Of a DNA stretch of 33,041 nt, positions 6,773 to 27,942 are shown piece by piece (within the stretch, counting starts at the first letter, position 1; every line of letters starts with the position of its first letter). Source of the DNA: Planctomycetota bacterium. Lineage in GTDB: Bacteria; Planctomycetota; Phycisphaerae; Tepidisphaerales; Tepidisphaeraceae. Location: positions 1-33,041 of the forward strand of contig JBCDKH010000017.1 in assembly GCA_038746835.1 (NCBI GenBank), in the 5' to 3' direction. The position numbers and the translations under genes are program-made. The notes under the pieces are model-generated. The model was not told the origin of the DNA, searched no databases, and saw only the letters and a program-made list of their open reading frames with translations.

Positions 6773-6850
6773 GAAGCCGTAGAGCAGAGCGAAGCGTCGC
6801 GCCGGGCGCGGCTCAGACCCGGAGCGACGCTTCGCTCTGCTCTCGGCTTC
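6773..6850. repeat. Long palindrome between cmk and the GHMP kinase gene
   Basis: The left arm 6773-6800 begins GAAGCCGTAGAGCAGAGCGA. It is the reverse complement of the right arm 6824-6850 except for one extra base. Weaker complementarity extends outward to about 6757 and 6866. The arms match no other element in the window. There is no T-run, so it is not a classical terminator, although it could act as a hairpin in RNA. Confidence 0.7.
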
Positions 6851-6914: not shown

Positions 6915-8342
6915 ATGGATCTCGCGACTCTCGAACCCGTCCCGGACTTGCTGCGTCGGGTGCGTTCGGAACTCGCTGCATCGTTCGCGACCGACAAACC
7001 GTTGCGGGTTGCCCGCGCACCGGGTCGGCTCGACGTGATGGGTGGAATCGCGGACTACATGGGGAGCCTTGTGCTGGAGATGCCGCTGCAGGTCGCGGCG
7101 GCCGTCGCGTTGCAGGAGCGCGACGATCGTCAGATCCAGGTCTTCAGCTTCAACCTGCTCGACGACCATCGGCCGTTCCAATTCCAAGTCCCGCTCGACG
7201 CACTCGCCAAACCGCTGGACGAGCTCCGACGCGACCTCGACGCCCCCGGCCGACAGTGGGCCGGGTACGCGGTCGGGCCGTTGGCGGTGCTGCATGACGA
7301 AGGCCTGATCGACGTTGCCAAGCTCGACCGCGGGTTCAACCTCGCGATCCTCTCGACCGTCCCCGAAGGCGGCGGCGTCTCGTCCTCAGCCGCGTTGGAA
7401 GTCGCCGCGATGAACGCCTTCGTCGGCCATTTCGACGTCCAGCCGCTCGTCGACGACCCGGTCCGACTCGCCGCCCTGTGCCAGAAGGCTGAGAACCAGG
7501 TCGTCGGCGCACCCTGCGGCGTAATGGACCAGATCGCCAGCCACATGGGCCAGGCCGGGATGCTTCTCAAAATCCTCTGCCAACCGCACGAAGTCCAAGG
7601 CACGCTGCCTCTGCCGGACGGCGTCGTCGCGGTCGGGCTCAACACGGCCGTCAAACACGCCGTCGGCGGCGGGGCATACGGCAAGACCCGCACGGCCGCG
7701 TTCATGGGGCACCGCCTTATCCTCGACGAGATGCGCAAACTCGGCGAGGCCGGCGGCAAGACGATGACCGGCGATCCGACCGACGGCTACCTCGCCAACC
7801 TCGACCCCGACGACTACAAGCAGCTCTTCCGGCCAAGGTTGCCCGAAACCCTCGCCGGCGCTGCGTTTCTCGACCAATTCGACTCCCACAACGACCCGGC
7901 AACGACGATCGACCCGGCCGAGACGTACCACGTCCAGGCGGCGGTCGACCATCACGTGCTTGAAGCCCAGCGTGTCCGCCGATTCGCCGACTTCCTCGAA
8001 CGCCTCGACCACCACGGCCGCGACAAGGCCCTGCGATCGGCGGGGCACCTGATGTACGCGAGCCACAAGAGCTACACCGACAACGCTGGCTTGGGCGCAG
8101 CCGAGGCCGACTTGGTCATCGAGCATGTCAAGCAGCACGAACCCGCCGGCCTCTTCGGCGCCCGCATCACCGGCGGCGGCTCCGGCGGCACCGTGGCGGT
8201 CCTGCTGGAAGACGCACCGTCCGCGTGGTCTGCGATCGACGTGATCCAGGAGGCTTATAAAAGTCGCTACGACCAGGCACTGACGCTGCTTCGAGACTCT
8301 TCCCCTGGAGCGGCGGAGACGGGAAGCCATGTCGTTGGCTGA
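6915..8342 (+). CDS. GHMP-family sugar kinase, L-arabinokinase/galactokinase type
   Basis: Phosphorylates the anomeric hydroxyl of a free sugar. All three GHMP motifs are present in 475 residues: ARAPGRLDVMGGIADYMGS (33-51), TVPEGGGVSSSAALEVAAM (148-166) and ITGGGSGGTVAVL near 418-430. The wording GRLDVMGGIADYMGSLVLEMP, the block CQKAENQVVGAPCGVMDQIA and the long insert with FDSHNDPATTIDP resemble the kinase half of plant L-arabinokinase (from memory) more than E. coli GalK, which has GEHTDYN at the first motif. The sugar could therefore be L-arabinose rather than galactose; this is inference. The final codons (SHVVG then TGA) run into a palindromic element that supplies the stop codon, so the C-terminus may have been altered by it. 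It starts at ATG 6915, 205 nt after cmk. Confidence 0.85.
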   Translation: MDLATLEPVPDLLRRVRSELAASFATDKPLRVARAPGRLDVMGGIADYMGSLVLEMPLQVAAAVALQERDDRQIQVFSFNLLDDHRPFQFQVPLDALAKPLDELRRDLDAPGRQWAGYAVGPLAVLHDEGLIDVAKLDRGFNLAILSTVPEGGGVSSSAALEVAAMNAFVGHFDVQPLVDDPVRLAALCQKAENQVVGAPCGVMDQIASHMGQAGMLLKILCQPHEVQGTLPLPDGVVAVGLNTAVKHAVGGGAYGKTRTAAFMGHRLILDEMRKLGEAGGKTMTGDPTDGYLANLDPDDYKQLFRPRLPETLAGAAFLDQFDSHNDPATTIDPAETYHVQAAVDHHVLEAQRVRRFADFLERLDHHGRDKALRSAGHLMYASHKSYTDNAGLGAAEADLVIEHVKQHEPAGLFGARITGGGSGGTVAVLLEDAPSAWSAIDVIQEAYKSRYDQALTLLRDSSPGAAETGSHVVG

Positions 8343-8450
8343 ACCGCGAAGGAGCAAAGAGACGAAGAGCCGCGAAGCTGATCTGAATGAGCAGCTGCGA
8401 CTCTAAATCCTTCGCGGCTCTTCGCTTCTTCGTCCCTTCGCGGTTCAGCC
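8337..8450. repeat. Long palindrome (family B, copy 1) overlapping the kinase stop codon
   Basis: Two 41-nt arms, 8337-8377 and 8410-8450, are reverse complements at 36 of 41 positions. The left arm begins GGCTGAACCGCGAAGGAGCA; TGA 8340-8342 inside it is the stop of the GHMP kinase. The phrase GAAGGAGCAAAG followed by GAAG recurs in the element inside priA (26614-26712), so both are assigned to one family. Confidence 0.75.
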
Positions 8451-8507
8451 AGACGACTTGAACTTGCCAAACGCCCCGGCTGCTGCCAACGTACCACCGT
8501 CGCAGGC

Positions 8508-12523: not shown

Positions 12524-12552
12524 TCTCCTCTGATCGTGAGTGTCAGGCCCGT

Positions 12553-12630
12553 AGCCGCGGGCTTACAGCCCGCGGTCCGGTGAACGCGGGGGGGCTCGCT
12601 GTCTGAACCGCGGGCTGTAGTCCCGCGGCT
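12553..12630. repeat. Inverted pair of REP-like hairpins
   Basis: Two 24-nt hairpins in opposite orientation, 12553-12576 (AGCCGCGGGCTTACAGCCCGCGGT, given here in two parts: stem AGCCGCGGGCT, stem AGCCCGCGGT) and 12607-12630, match each other at 22 of 24 positions once one is reversed. This head-to-head layout is like the BIMEs of enterobacteria. A third copy lies inside the DUF3465 gene at 4955-4979. Confidence 0.75.
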
Positions 12631-12658
12631 AGGCAACTACCCCGTCGCAAGAATCCCG

Positions 12659-18285: not shown

Positions 18286-18376
18286 CGTTACGGGGGTTCG
18301 CTCCGCTCACCCCACGGCTTCATCCCGATGATTGCACACCGAAGCCGTGGGGTGAGCGAAGCGATCCCCCGGAACG
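18286..18376. repeat. Long palindrome between divergent genes
   Basis: Two 36-nt arms, 18286-18321 and 18341-18376, are reverse complements at 33 of 36 positions. The core CGCTCACCCCACGGCTTC is perfectly paired, and a 19-nt loop separates the arms. It lies between the starts of the divergent genes at 18214 and 18446, so it cannot be a terminator for either of them. It would have to be a mobile or regulatory palindrome. Confidence 0.75.
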
Positions 18377-19493: not shown

Positions 19494-19579
19494 GACTGCG
19501 ACCCACAGGGTCACAGCTACCGACTTGCGTTGAAGTCAGCTCGGTGTACTGGGTAGCTGCGACCCTGCGGGTCGCAGTC
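19494..19579. repeat. Inverted repeat between convergent genes, possible bidirectional terminator
   Basis: The 28-nt arms 19494-19521 and 19552-19579 are reverse complements at 26 of 28 positions. The right arm contains a small perfect palindrome, GCGACCC-TGC-GGGTCGC. The element fills the gap between the M42 peptidase stop and the tsaD stop, ending just before the latter. It could fold in transcripts from both sides. No T-run is seen. Confidence 0.65.
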
Positions 19580-25476: not shown

Positions 25477-27942
25477 TCACATCAGGTTGACCGGGTCGAC
25501 ATCGACTGCGAGTCGATCGGTCTGACTCAAAGCACCCGCACCACGTGCCCTCGCCAGCACTCGCTGCAGCGGCATTGCCTGCGGCGAGCGCAGGACGATC
25601 TGCTGCCGGAAGTAGCCGGCGATCCGAGAGATCGGGCACGGCATCGGCCCGTCGATGTGGACCGACTCGCCTTCCGAATCAGCGGCGTCGGAGAGCTGCC
25701 CGGCCAAGACCTCGGCTCGCGTGAGCAGCTTCTCCTCGTCGCGGTCGCGCAGGATGATCCGCACCATTCGCCCGAACGGCGGCAGCCCGGTGACCCGGCG
25801 ATGCTCCAGCTCGCGATCGGCAAAGCCGACGTAGTCCTGTTTCGTCGCCGCCCGGATCGCCTCGTCGAACGGGTTGAACGTCTGCAGCACGACACGCCCC
25901 GGCACCTCGCCGCGGCCGGCACGTCCGGCGACCTGCGTGATGAGCCCGAACGTCCGCTCGGCCGCGCGGAAGTCGGGCAGGCCGAGGCTCGTGTCGCCGC
26001 TGACGACGCCGACCAGCGAGACGTTCGGAAAGTCGAGCCCTTTGGCGATCATCTGCGTGCCGAGGAGCACGTCGATCTCGCCGTTGGCGAAGCGTTCCAA
26101 CACGCGCTCGTAGTCGCCAGAGCGTCGCATGGTGTCGGAGTCGACGCGCTCGAAAGTGAGGTCGGGAAACTTGCGTCCCATCTCCTCTTCCATCCGCTGC
26201 GTGCCAAGGCCAAAGAGCGAGAGGTTGCCGCCCGACCGCTTGGCCGCGTCGTCGAGCGGATCGACGGCCAGGCAGTAGTGGCAGTGGAGCTGACCCGTGT
26301 GCAGAGCCTTGCGAAACGACGCCCCGACGTCGCCGTGTCCGGCCGTGCGGTGGTACGTCATCGTCGCGTCGCAGAATCGGCAGCAGACCGGCTCGTCGGT
26401 GCTCGGGTTGTAGACGAAGCTCGCGTATCCGCGGCGATTGAGCAGCAAAATCGACTGCTGCCCGACGTCCTTGGTGTGCCGAAGCAAGTGCTCCAACCGC
26501 GGCGACAGCAGGTGCACGCCTTTCCGCATCCGCGCCGCCTCCTTGAGATCCACCACTTCAATCGTCGGCATCGGCCGATTCGCGACACGGTTTGGCAAAT
26601 GATGCAACTCGCTGATGCGCGAAGACGCGAAGGCAGTGAAGGAGCGCGAAGCAGAAACAGCGTATTCATGACCGACTTCGCGCTCCTTTGCTCCTTCGTC
26701 TCTTCGCGCATCATCGATCCACGTCCGTGCTCGCTGATACGACTCCAACGACGGCGTCGCACTCCCAAGCAACACGGGGCAGTCCGCCAGCTGGGCTCGC
26801 TTGATGGCGACGTCGCGGGCGTGGTAGCGCGGGGCGGTGTCTTGCTTGTACGAGGACTCGTGCTCTTCATCGACAACGAACAGGCCGGGGTTCGGGACGG
26901 GGGCGAAGATGGCCGAGCGGGCACCGACGACGACCTCCGCCTGGCCAGTGGCGATCTGTTGCCAGTACTTGTGCCGGGCCGTTTGAGACAGGCCGCTGTG
27001 GAGAACGGCGACGCGTGGGAAGCGGCTCTTGATGCGCCTCGTCGTCTGCGGCGTGAGCGCGATCTCCGGCACGAGCAGCACCGCCTGCCGGCCCTTCGCC
27101 AAAGCCTCGGCCATCAGGCGCAGGTAGACCTCGGTCTTGCCACTGCCGGTGACGCCGAGTAGCAGATGCGTCGCGAAACCGCCGTCGCGCACGTTCGGAG
27201 CGACGGCGTCGAAAACGCGCTGTTGATCCGGGTTGAGCGAGACGCTCGACGGCGTGACAGGCGATGGCTCGAGTTCACTCAGCGTCGGCAGGTCGGGCAC
27301 CGTCTCGATCGCGACAACGCCGAGCTTGGCGAGCTTCTTCACCGTCGGCGGCGTGACGCCTGCGTCGCCGGCGAGTTTGACGACGTCGATCGTCTCACCC
27401 TCGTCGAGCTGCATCAGCCGAGCCAGAAGCGTGCGTCGCTTCTTCGCCGTGGTGGCTTCGAAACGTTCCTGAAGCTCGTCGCGGGAGAGGATCGGACGCA
27501 CGACGCTCGTGTAGCCGAGGCCGGTCTTGGACTTCACCGCGCCTGGAATCATGCTTTCGAGCACGAGGCCGAGCGCGCAGCAGTAGTAGCGGCCGATCCA
27601 GAGCGCCAGCTTCATCATGGCCTGATCGACCAGGACGCGGTCGTCCTCGATGCCACGGACGGGCTTGAGCTTGGCCGCCGAGACGCCTGCAGCCTCGGCG
27701 TCGAAGGTCTCGGCGACGTCAACGACAAAGCCGAACTGCGTCCGATCCTTCCGCCCCAAGGGCACCCGCACGCGCTGCCCGGCACGCAGCGTCGGCCGAA
27801 GCGCCGGCGGGACGACGTAGGTCAGCGTCTTGTCGACCGCTCGCTCCAGCGCTACCCGGGCGAACGGTCCTTCAGCGCTCTGCGTGTCCGAAGCCCGACT
27901 CGGCTCCAGCAGCAGCTCTTCGAACAGGACCTCGTTCGCCAC
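25477..27942 (-). CDS. priA: Primosomal replication-restart helicase PriA with in-frame insertion
   Basis: Restarts stalled replication forks by binding fork DNA, unwinding and loading the replicative helicase. From GTG 27942 the protein has 821 residues. The 3'-binding domain opens with FARVALERAVDKTLTYVVPP. Helicase motifs are GVTGSGKTEVYL near 265, VVDEEHESSYKQ near 355, GSATPSLESY near 393 and the second lobe GTQMIAKGLDFPNVSLVGVV with TQVAGRAGRG. Residues 411-443 are an extra 33 codons made of a palindromic element. Only two cysteine pairs (CRFC near 520, CHYC near 553) of the usual four are present. The frame is open up to 29100, but that part is a shadow of the opposite gene; GTG 27972 and 27981 are alternative starts. 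Confidence 0.92.
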   Translation of the reverse strand: MANEVLFEELLLEPSRASDTQSAEGPFARVALERAVDKTLTYVVPPALRPTLRAGQRVRVPLGRKDRTQFGFVVDVAETFDAEAAGVSAAKLKPVRGIEDDRVLVDQAMMKLALWIGRYYCCALGLVLESMIPGAVKSKTGLGYTSVVRPILSRDELQERFEATTAKKRRTLLARLMQLDEGETIDVVKLAGDAGVTPPTVKKLAKLGVVAIETVPDLPTLSELEPSPVTPSSVSLNPDQQRVFDAVAPNVRDGGFATHLLLGVTGSGKTEVYLRLMAEALAKGRQAVLLVPEIALTPQTTRRIKSRFPRVAVLHSGLSQTARHKYWQQIATGQAEVVVGARSAIFAPVPNPGLFVVDEEHESSYKQDTAPRYHARDVAIKRAQLADCPVLLGSATPSLESYQRARTWIDDARRDEGAKEREVGHEYAVSASRSFTAFASSRISELHHLPNRVANRPMPTIEVVDLKEAARMRKGVHLLSPRLEHLLRHTKDVGQQSILLLNRRGYASFVYNPSTDEPVCCRFCDATMTYHRTAGHGDVGASFRKALHTGQLHCHYCLAVDPLDDAAKRSGGNLSLFGLGTQRMEEEMGRKFPDLTFERVDSDTMRRSGDYERVLERFANGEIDVLLGTQMIAKGLDFPNVSLVGVVSGDTSLGLPDFRAAERTFGLITQVAGRAGRGEVPGRVVLQTFNPFDEAIRAATKQDYVGFADRELEHRRVTGLPPFGRMVRIILRDRDEEKLLTRAEVLAGQLSDAADSEGESVHIDGPMPCPISRIAGYFRQQIVLRSPQAMPLQRVLARARGAGALSQTDRLAVDVDPVNLM
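26614..26712. repeat. Palindromic element (family B, copy 2) in frame inside priA
   Basis: The left arm 26614-26651 (GATGCGCGAAGACGCGAAGG onward) and the right arm 26676-26712 are reverse complements at about 31 of 38 positions. The whole is 99 bp, exactly 33 codons, and begins and ends on codon boundaries of priA. The words GAAGGAGCAAAG and CGCGAAG are shared with the element at 8337-8450. It encodes residues DARRDEGAKERE and onward, ending ASSRI. Confidence 0.75.

Follow-up and report, generated by a model that had tools for sequence, protein, structure and literature searches.

Rickettsia palindromic elements (RPE) are palindromes of ~100-150 bp that occur in many copies and in several families, and are found in frame in unrelated genes, where they add a few dozen residues to the protein (PMC10969869, PMC6649704). 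REPs are mainly intergenic, with some located in frame in replication and repair genes, and in two Xanthomonas species recB carries different REPs at nearly the same position (PMC3733652). REPs in general are also recorded in planctomycetes, and REPs within genes in other phyla (PMC3733652); the text of that article does not mention priA. Intragenic MITEs (ERIC, QMITE and the like) are short non-autonomous inverted-repeat elements with occasional in-frame fusions (PMC10969869). For the planctomycete group considered here, searches of the open-access literature, including searches with literal repeat strings, returned no reports of such in-gene palindromes. To this extent, the remark in the initial annotation that no such planctomycete report was known agrees with the literature.

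In this study, we analyzed a palindrome located inside priA of a planctomycete. The window, i.e., the whole stretch of 33,041 nucleotides analyzed, is contig C17 of the source genome (G000), which comprises 335 contigs. The priA gene, encoding primosomal protein N' (replication restart helicase), is on the minus strand at 25477..27942 and is complete, extending from GTG at 27942 to the stop at 25477 (821 aa). Its product contains PriA_3primeBD, DEAD, Helicase_C and PriA_C domains (Pfam), matches TIGR00595 above the cut-off of this model, and is matched by solved PriA structures (PDB chains) in sequence as well as in predicted fold. Its PriA relatives among planctomycetes suggest that the source organism probably belongs to the class Phycisphaerae. 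Of its eight zinc-binding cysteines, this PriA has lost four, which are replaced by N, T, A and S (A1 columns 701, 704, 757 and 760). The lost residues are the first and the last pair, all of which 25/25 other aligned PriA sequences retain, and judging from the alignment they would be one whole zinc site. With these residues lost, full function of the protein as an essential helicase is an assumption.

The full stem of the palindromic element spans 26609..26717 (109 nt), and a covariance model built from its family (see below) matches 26612-26715 with an E-value of 5.5e-18. The core, 26614-26712, is 99 nt or 33 codons long and starts on a priA codon boundary; that it is codon-aligned and keeps the helicase frame, as originally proposed, was borne out in coordinates and phase on the complete gene. 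One arm (26612..26651) is composed of the units GCGCGAAG, ACGCGAAG, GCAGTGAAG and GAGCGCGAAG. It is followed by a 24-nt loop (26652..26675), which varies among copies, and by the other arm (26676..26715), which is complementary to 26612-26651. The fold energy of 26614-26712 (RNA parameters) is -63.5 kcal/mol vs -31.3 +/- 3.2 in 200 dinucleotide shuffles (z -10), none of which was equally good. The element had been described as a near-perfect palindrome. Its strength and its 24-nt loop stand, but the arms are gapped by one-base bulges (the stretches that pair without gaps measure 25 nt, at 88%, and 13 nt, at 100%) and the stem is longer than proposed. Because this stem can be traced out to ~26609-26717, the figure of 33 codons represents one choice of border, and the exact border is unfixed.

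Counted from the GTG at 27942, the insert corresponds to PriA residues 411-443, between helicase motif III (GSATPSLE) and the LPNRV block, and the distance between these two motifs is 48 residues. In an AlphaFold model (814 residues; alignment of 26 sequences), residues ~411-440 form an extended helix followed by a low-confidence loop, with pLDDT values of 32-62 vs mostly 80-95 in the adjoining helicase blocks. In the model, such low values fit a tolerated surface insertion, and they may come in part from missing homologues.

We compared this loop with those of other bacteria. The stretch from GSATPSLE to LPxRV is 12-26 aa in eleven other members of the bacterial family vs 48 aa here, and 15 aa in 7/7 Phycisphaerae read outside the family. 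Gaps between PriA matches were also small in other listed members of the class, and the stretch after GSATPSLE was short in ~45 named bacteria from many phyla. A PriA search of a wider contig collection, which gave mainly distant bacteria, served as the control for loop length. The initial annotation was therefore right that other PriA proteins pass almost directly from GSATP to LPNRV, the loop being ~15 aa in other bacteria. Loop length inside the family varies between 12 and 136 aa (the latter counted by hand), and the nearest PriA by sequence in this part of the protein, that of G016, has 66% identity and a loop of 12 aa. All relatives compared for the insert belong to other genera, none being congeneric with the source genome. 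A gap opposite residues 411-443 is present in these relatives as predicted, but the net gain relative to those with loops of 12-24 aa is 24-36 residues, with the border unfixed, instead of a clean 33. Relatives carrying the same 33 residues in non-palindromic DNA were looked for by alignment and were absent.

The priA element is a member of a dispersed repeat family. A second copy in the window, which is intergenic and of terminus type GGCTGAACCGCGAAG, was identified at 8336..8451 by its fold and the covariance model. Sequence words shared by the priA element and a palindrome at 8337-8450 had been pointed out previously, and both elements indeed score with one covariance model (E 5.5e-18 for the priA copy and 6.7e-20 for the intergenic copy at 8339-8449, both among the 16 training copies). 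When the 99-bp element was used as the BLASTN query against the source genome, one match (74%) spanning almost the entire element and ~20 arm-sharing loci were detected, and more loci were matched with a better conserved copy as the query. Sixteen copies align on one plan, with four ~8-nt GCGAAG-type units per arm and a variable loop. The model derived from these copies gave 71 strand matches in the source genome and matches in 21/26 genomes of the family; these counts are lower bounds, since only 133 candidates were scored per genome. In fetched stretches of the source genome we read 33 loci, a census that covers targeted stretches and is likewise a lower bound. The arms thus recur at >30 dispersed loci, contrary to the possibility, raised at the outset, that the genome has no other copy of them.

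Across the 16 copies, 95.6% of stem cells are paired vs <=53% in slid controls. Double-changed stem cells number 39 vs 14 in shuffles and <=4 with the partner slid by up to three columns, and 13 stem pairs show changes on both sides. This covariation indicates that the stem was preserved as a stem during divergence of the copies; variable loops together with co-varying arms also fit correction of one arm from the other. One copy (L250 2255-2380, G000:C168) looks like a fusion of two subfamilies, its arms having different end types, GGCTGAACCGC in one and GCGATCTCTG in the other. The window also contains four palindromes of other families (6781-6843, 12552-12631, 18286-18376 and 19494-19579), apparently all intergenic, and an Rfam scan of the window detected one tRNA and nothing else.

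In at least five relatives, the same PriA loop is filled by palindromes from a variety of unrelated repeat families. These inserts include a (GGGTATC)n palindrome in G020 (z -6.9), a GTGCCACCGGCGGC palindrome in G021 (z -7.4), a (GGCACGGA)n palindrome in G012 (z -8.7) and, in G001, an outer (ACGCGGGG)n palindrome that encloses a (GTGCAAA)n palindrome (z -12.5). The nested insert of G022, a congener of G001, is larger and likewise remains open; the nested loops of these two species are 95 and 136 aa long. The inserts of G020, G021, G012 and G001 are each repeated elsewhere in their own genome (combined insert query). Other copies of the 224-nt G001 insert match at 76-82% over the full length, and the arms of the G012 insert recur dozens of times. 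In every PriA-loop insert read, the frame is kept and there are no stops. The loops of G003 and G004 contain suggestive inserts and were left out of the count of repeat-derived inserts. G003 priA (L051) has a second long insert in the linker before Walker A (A1 columns ~257-335); it contains RHHGLEARATETS, which resembles another planctomycete repeat (HGRDARAT type). Overall, this loop of PriA tolerates insertion and was struck independently by several unrelated palindrome families within the bacterial family.

Outside priA, two more of the 33 source-genome loci are in frame within Pfam-supported genes, purL and an ABC exporter gene; with the priA copy, these agree with the proposal that this repeat family lands in genes. 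The purL copy is between the linker and the AIRS domain, in a stretch of 69 aa vs ~43-50 aa in insert-free relatives (~20-26 aa longer). A palindromic insert is present at the same purL loop in G022 and, more weakly, in G025, and a second purL loop bears a palindromic insert in G015. In G010 purL (L278), this second loop has a direct repeat, KTGTGTVSSSD occurring twice, so other repeat types would appear, from the sequence, to enter it as well. The copy in the ABC exporter is between the membrane and ATPase domains (TMD-NBD linker), where the linker is 86 aa long; in most relatives whose linker is clearly recognizable, it is 56-64 aa. The priA and ABC exporter copies, the only two clear cases, are read in the same phase and give similar peptides, and this phase is the one most often open (36/58). 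Several long ORFs that span copies but lack Pfam support were excluded from the gene count. The in-gene count leaves out low-scoring copies in L244 and L250, which adjoin GNAT-like ORFs, and a copy in L248 that lies shortly upstream of yebC. Among the 34 loci inspected in G012, only the one in priA was flanked on each side by domains of a Pfam-supported gene. In-gene copies are thus the exception, as expected if most coding insertions are lost.

We consider it highly probable that the priA segment represents a copy from a dispersed family of palindromic repeats, inserted in a permissive surface loop and translated as ~33 extra residues. The sequences themselves show its membership in the family, the insertion relative to other bacteria, the in-frame, stop-free reading, the independent hits in the same loop, and the purL and ABC exporter copies. 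The repeats would insert widely across the genome, and selection would purge gene-breaking copies, leaving intergenic copies and rare in-frame copies in loops and linkers; the priA palindrome would be translated as extra residues and be close to neutral. In a copy, about 48% of reading frames lack stops vs 19% in shuffled sequence of equal composition, so a good proportion of insertions could preserve the frame and remain open. Copying to new places would depend on some machinery, for which a RAYT-type Y1 transposase acting in trans is one candidate. Y1_Tnp genes are present in 26/26 family genomes. This candidate is a guess, because only 3/18 inspected Y1_Tnp genes have a repeat copy nearby, one of the three being a strong match; the source genome has only three weak Y1_Tnp matches, with no repeat copy beside any of them. 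Inspection by eye of the flanks of 30 copies revealed no consistent target-site duplication, and the element borders are fuzzy.

Other explanations have to be weighed against this one. The PriA loop could be a favoured landing site and not just a tolerant one. The entry of single-stranded or hairpin DNA would then be coupled to replication restart or to one mechanism common to many unrelated palindrome families, and the segments would be kept because they change PriA; in the PriA studied here, this would accompany the loss of one zinc site. We regard this as improbable. To about the same small degree, the palindrome may have arisen in place, by expansion or template switching in a native low-complexity linker. 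The arms are indeed runs of ~8-nt units, the loops vary among copies, the arms co-vary as if one were corrected from the other, and target-site duplications are not visible. However, the arm sequence, the unit register and the overall plan are common to >30 dispersed copies in the source genome, and the composite element inserted in G001 is complete and also occurs elsewhere, at 82% identity over 224 nt.

It is very unlikely that the insert is transcribed and then skipped, with ribosomes bypassing the hairpin as described for the mitochondrial palindromic elements of the yeast Magnusiomyces. Bypassing elements would likewise look like a strong hairpin inside a coding region, to follow the passage of PMC6649704 that cites this precedent, but they need neither a preserved frame nor absence of stops. 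Here, ~10 inserts that are wholly or partly independent of each other (six genomes with one in priA, ~4 with one in purL and one with one in the ABC exporter) are all in frame and stop-free, whereas by chance a random frame of the element is open in only 48% of cases and the frame is kept in one third. An assembly or binning artefact of the draft genome is hardly credible. The source genome is in 335 contigs, palindromes break assemblies, and of two G022 contigs that overlap in priA, C500 (L264) and C104 (L045), one ends exactly inside the palindromic loop. Yet the insert under study is mid-contig, and the frame is intact to either side of it. The G012 genome, assembled as one contig of 7.19 Mb, carries a palindrome of its own at this site, and C500 reads through the loop in G022.

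If insertion into a permissive loop is the correct explanation, dispersed repeat DNA would supply new peptide segments to core enzymes, i.e., to PriA and two other proteins. In-gene palindromes have so far been viewed largely as a peculiarity of Rickettsia, along with scattered REP cases. In this planctomycete group, several unrelated repeat families lead to the same outcome, and one loop of a core enzyme was filled independently across genera. These loops form a natural series of replicates, which may help to see how repeat DNA becomes protein and how much foreign peptide a helicase tolerates, and which also bears on whether sites reflect survival or targeting. There is also a warning for annotation, in that such inserts resemble lineage-specific domains and can break assemblies.

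With respect to known systems, the priA element family, like MITEs, comprises short non-autonomous inverted repeats with occasional in-frame copies in genes. It differs from MITEs in that it has no recognizable terminal duplication, no parent transposon was found, and the centre varies among copies. It is like REPs, REPINs and BIMEs in consisting of dispersed palindromes that are mainly intergenic, with some in frame in genes. Those elements, however, have units of 20-40 bp, a GTAG/CGTC tag and often a linked RAYT, whereas the repeats described here are unit arrays of ~95-160 bp; the termini of 30 copies read carry neither GTAG nor CGTC as a tag at the stem base, and there is no clear RAYT link for this family. 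There is also a likeness to RPE, which the initial annotation aptly offered as an analogy. Size (~100-150 bp of palindromic DNA), the many genomic copies, and in-frame, stop-free insertion in unrelated protein genes (here priA, purL and the ABC exporter) are common to both, and the planctomycete repeats appear to work like RPE, a likeness of behaviour for which we claim no kinship in sequence. In contrast to RPE, the present repeats occur in another phylum, have arms of tandem ~8-nt units and are mostly intergenic, and unrelated families of them enter one PriA loop in different genera, including palindromes within palindromes.
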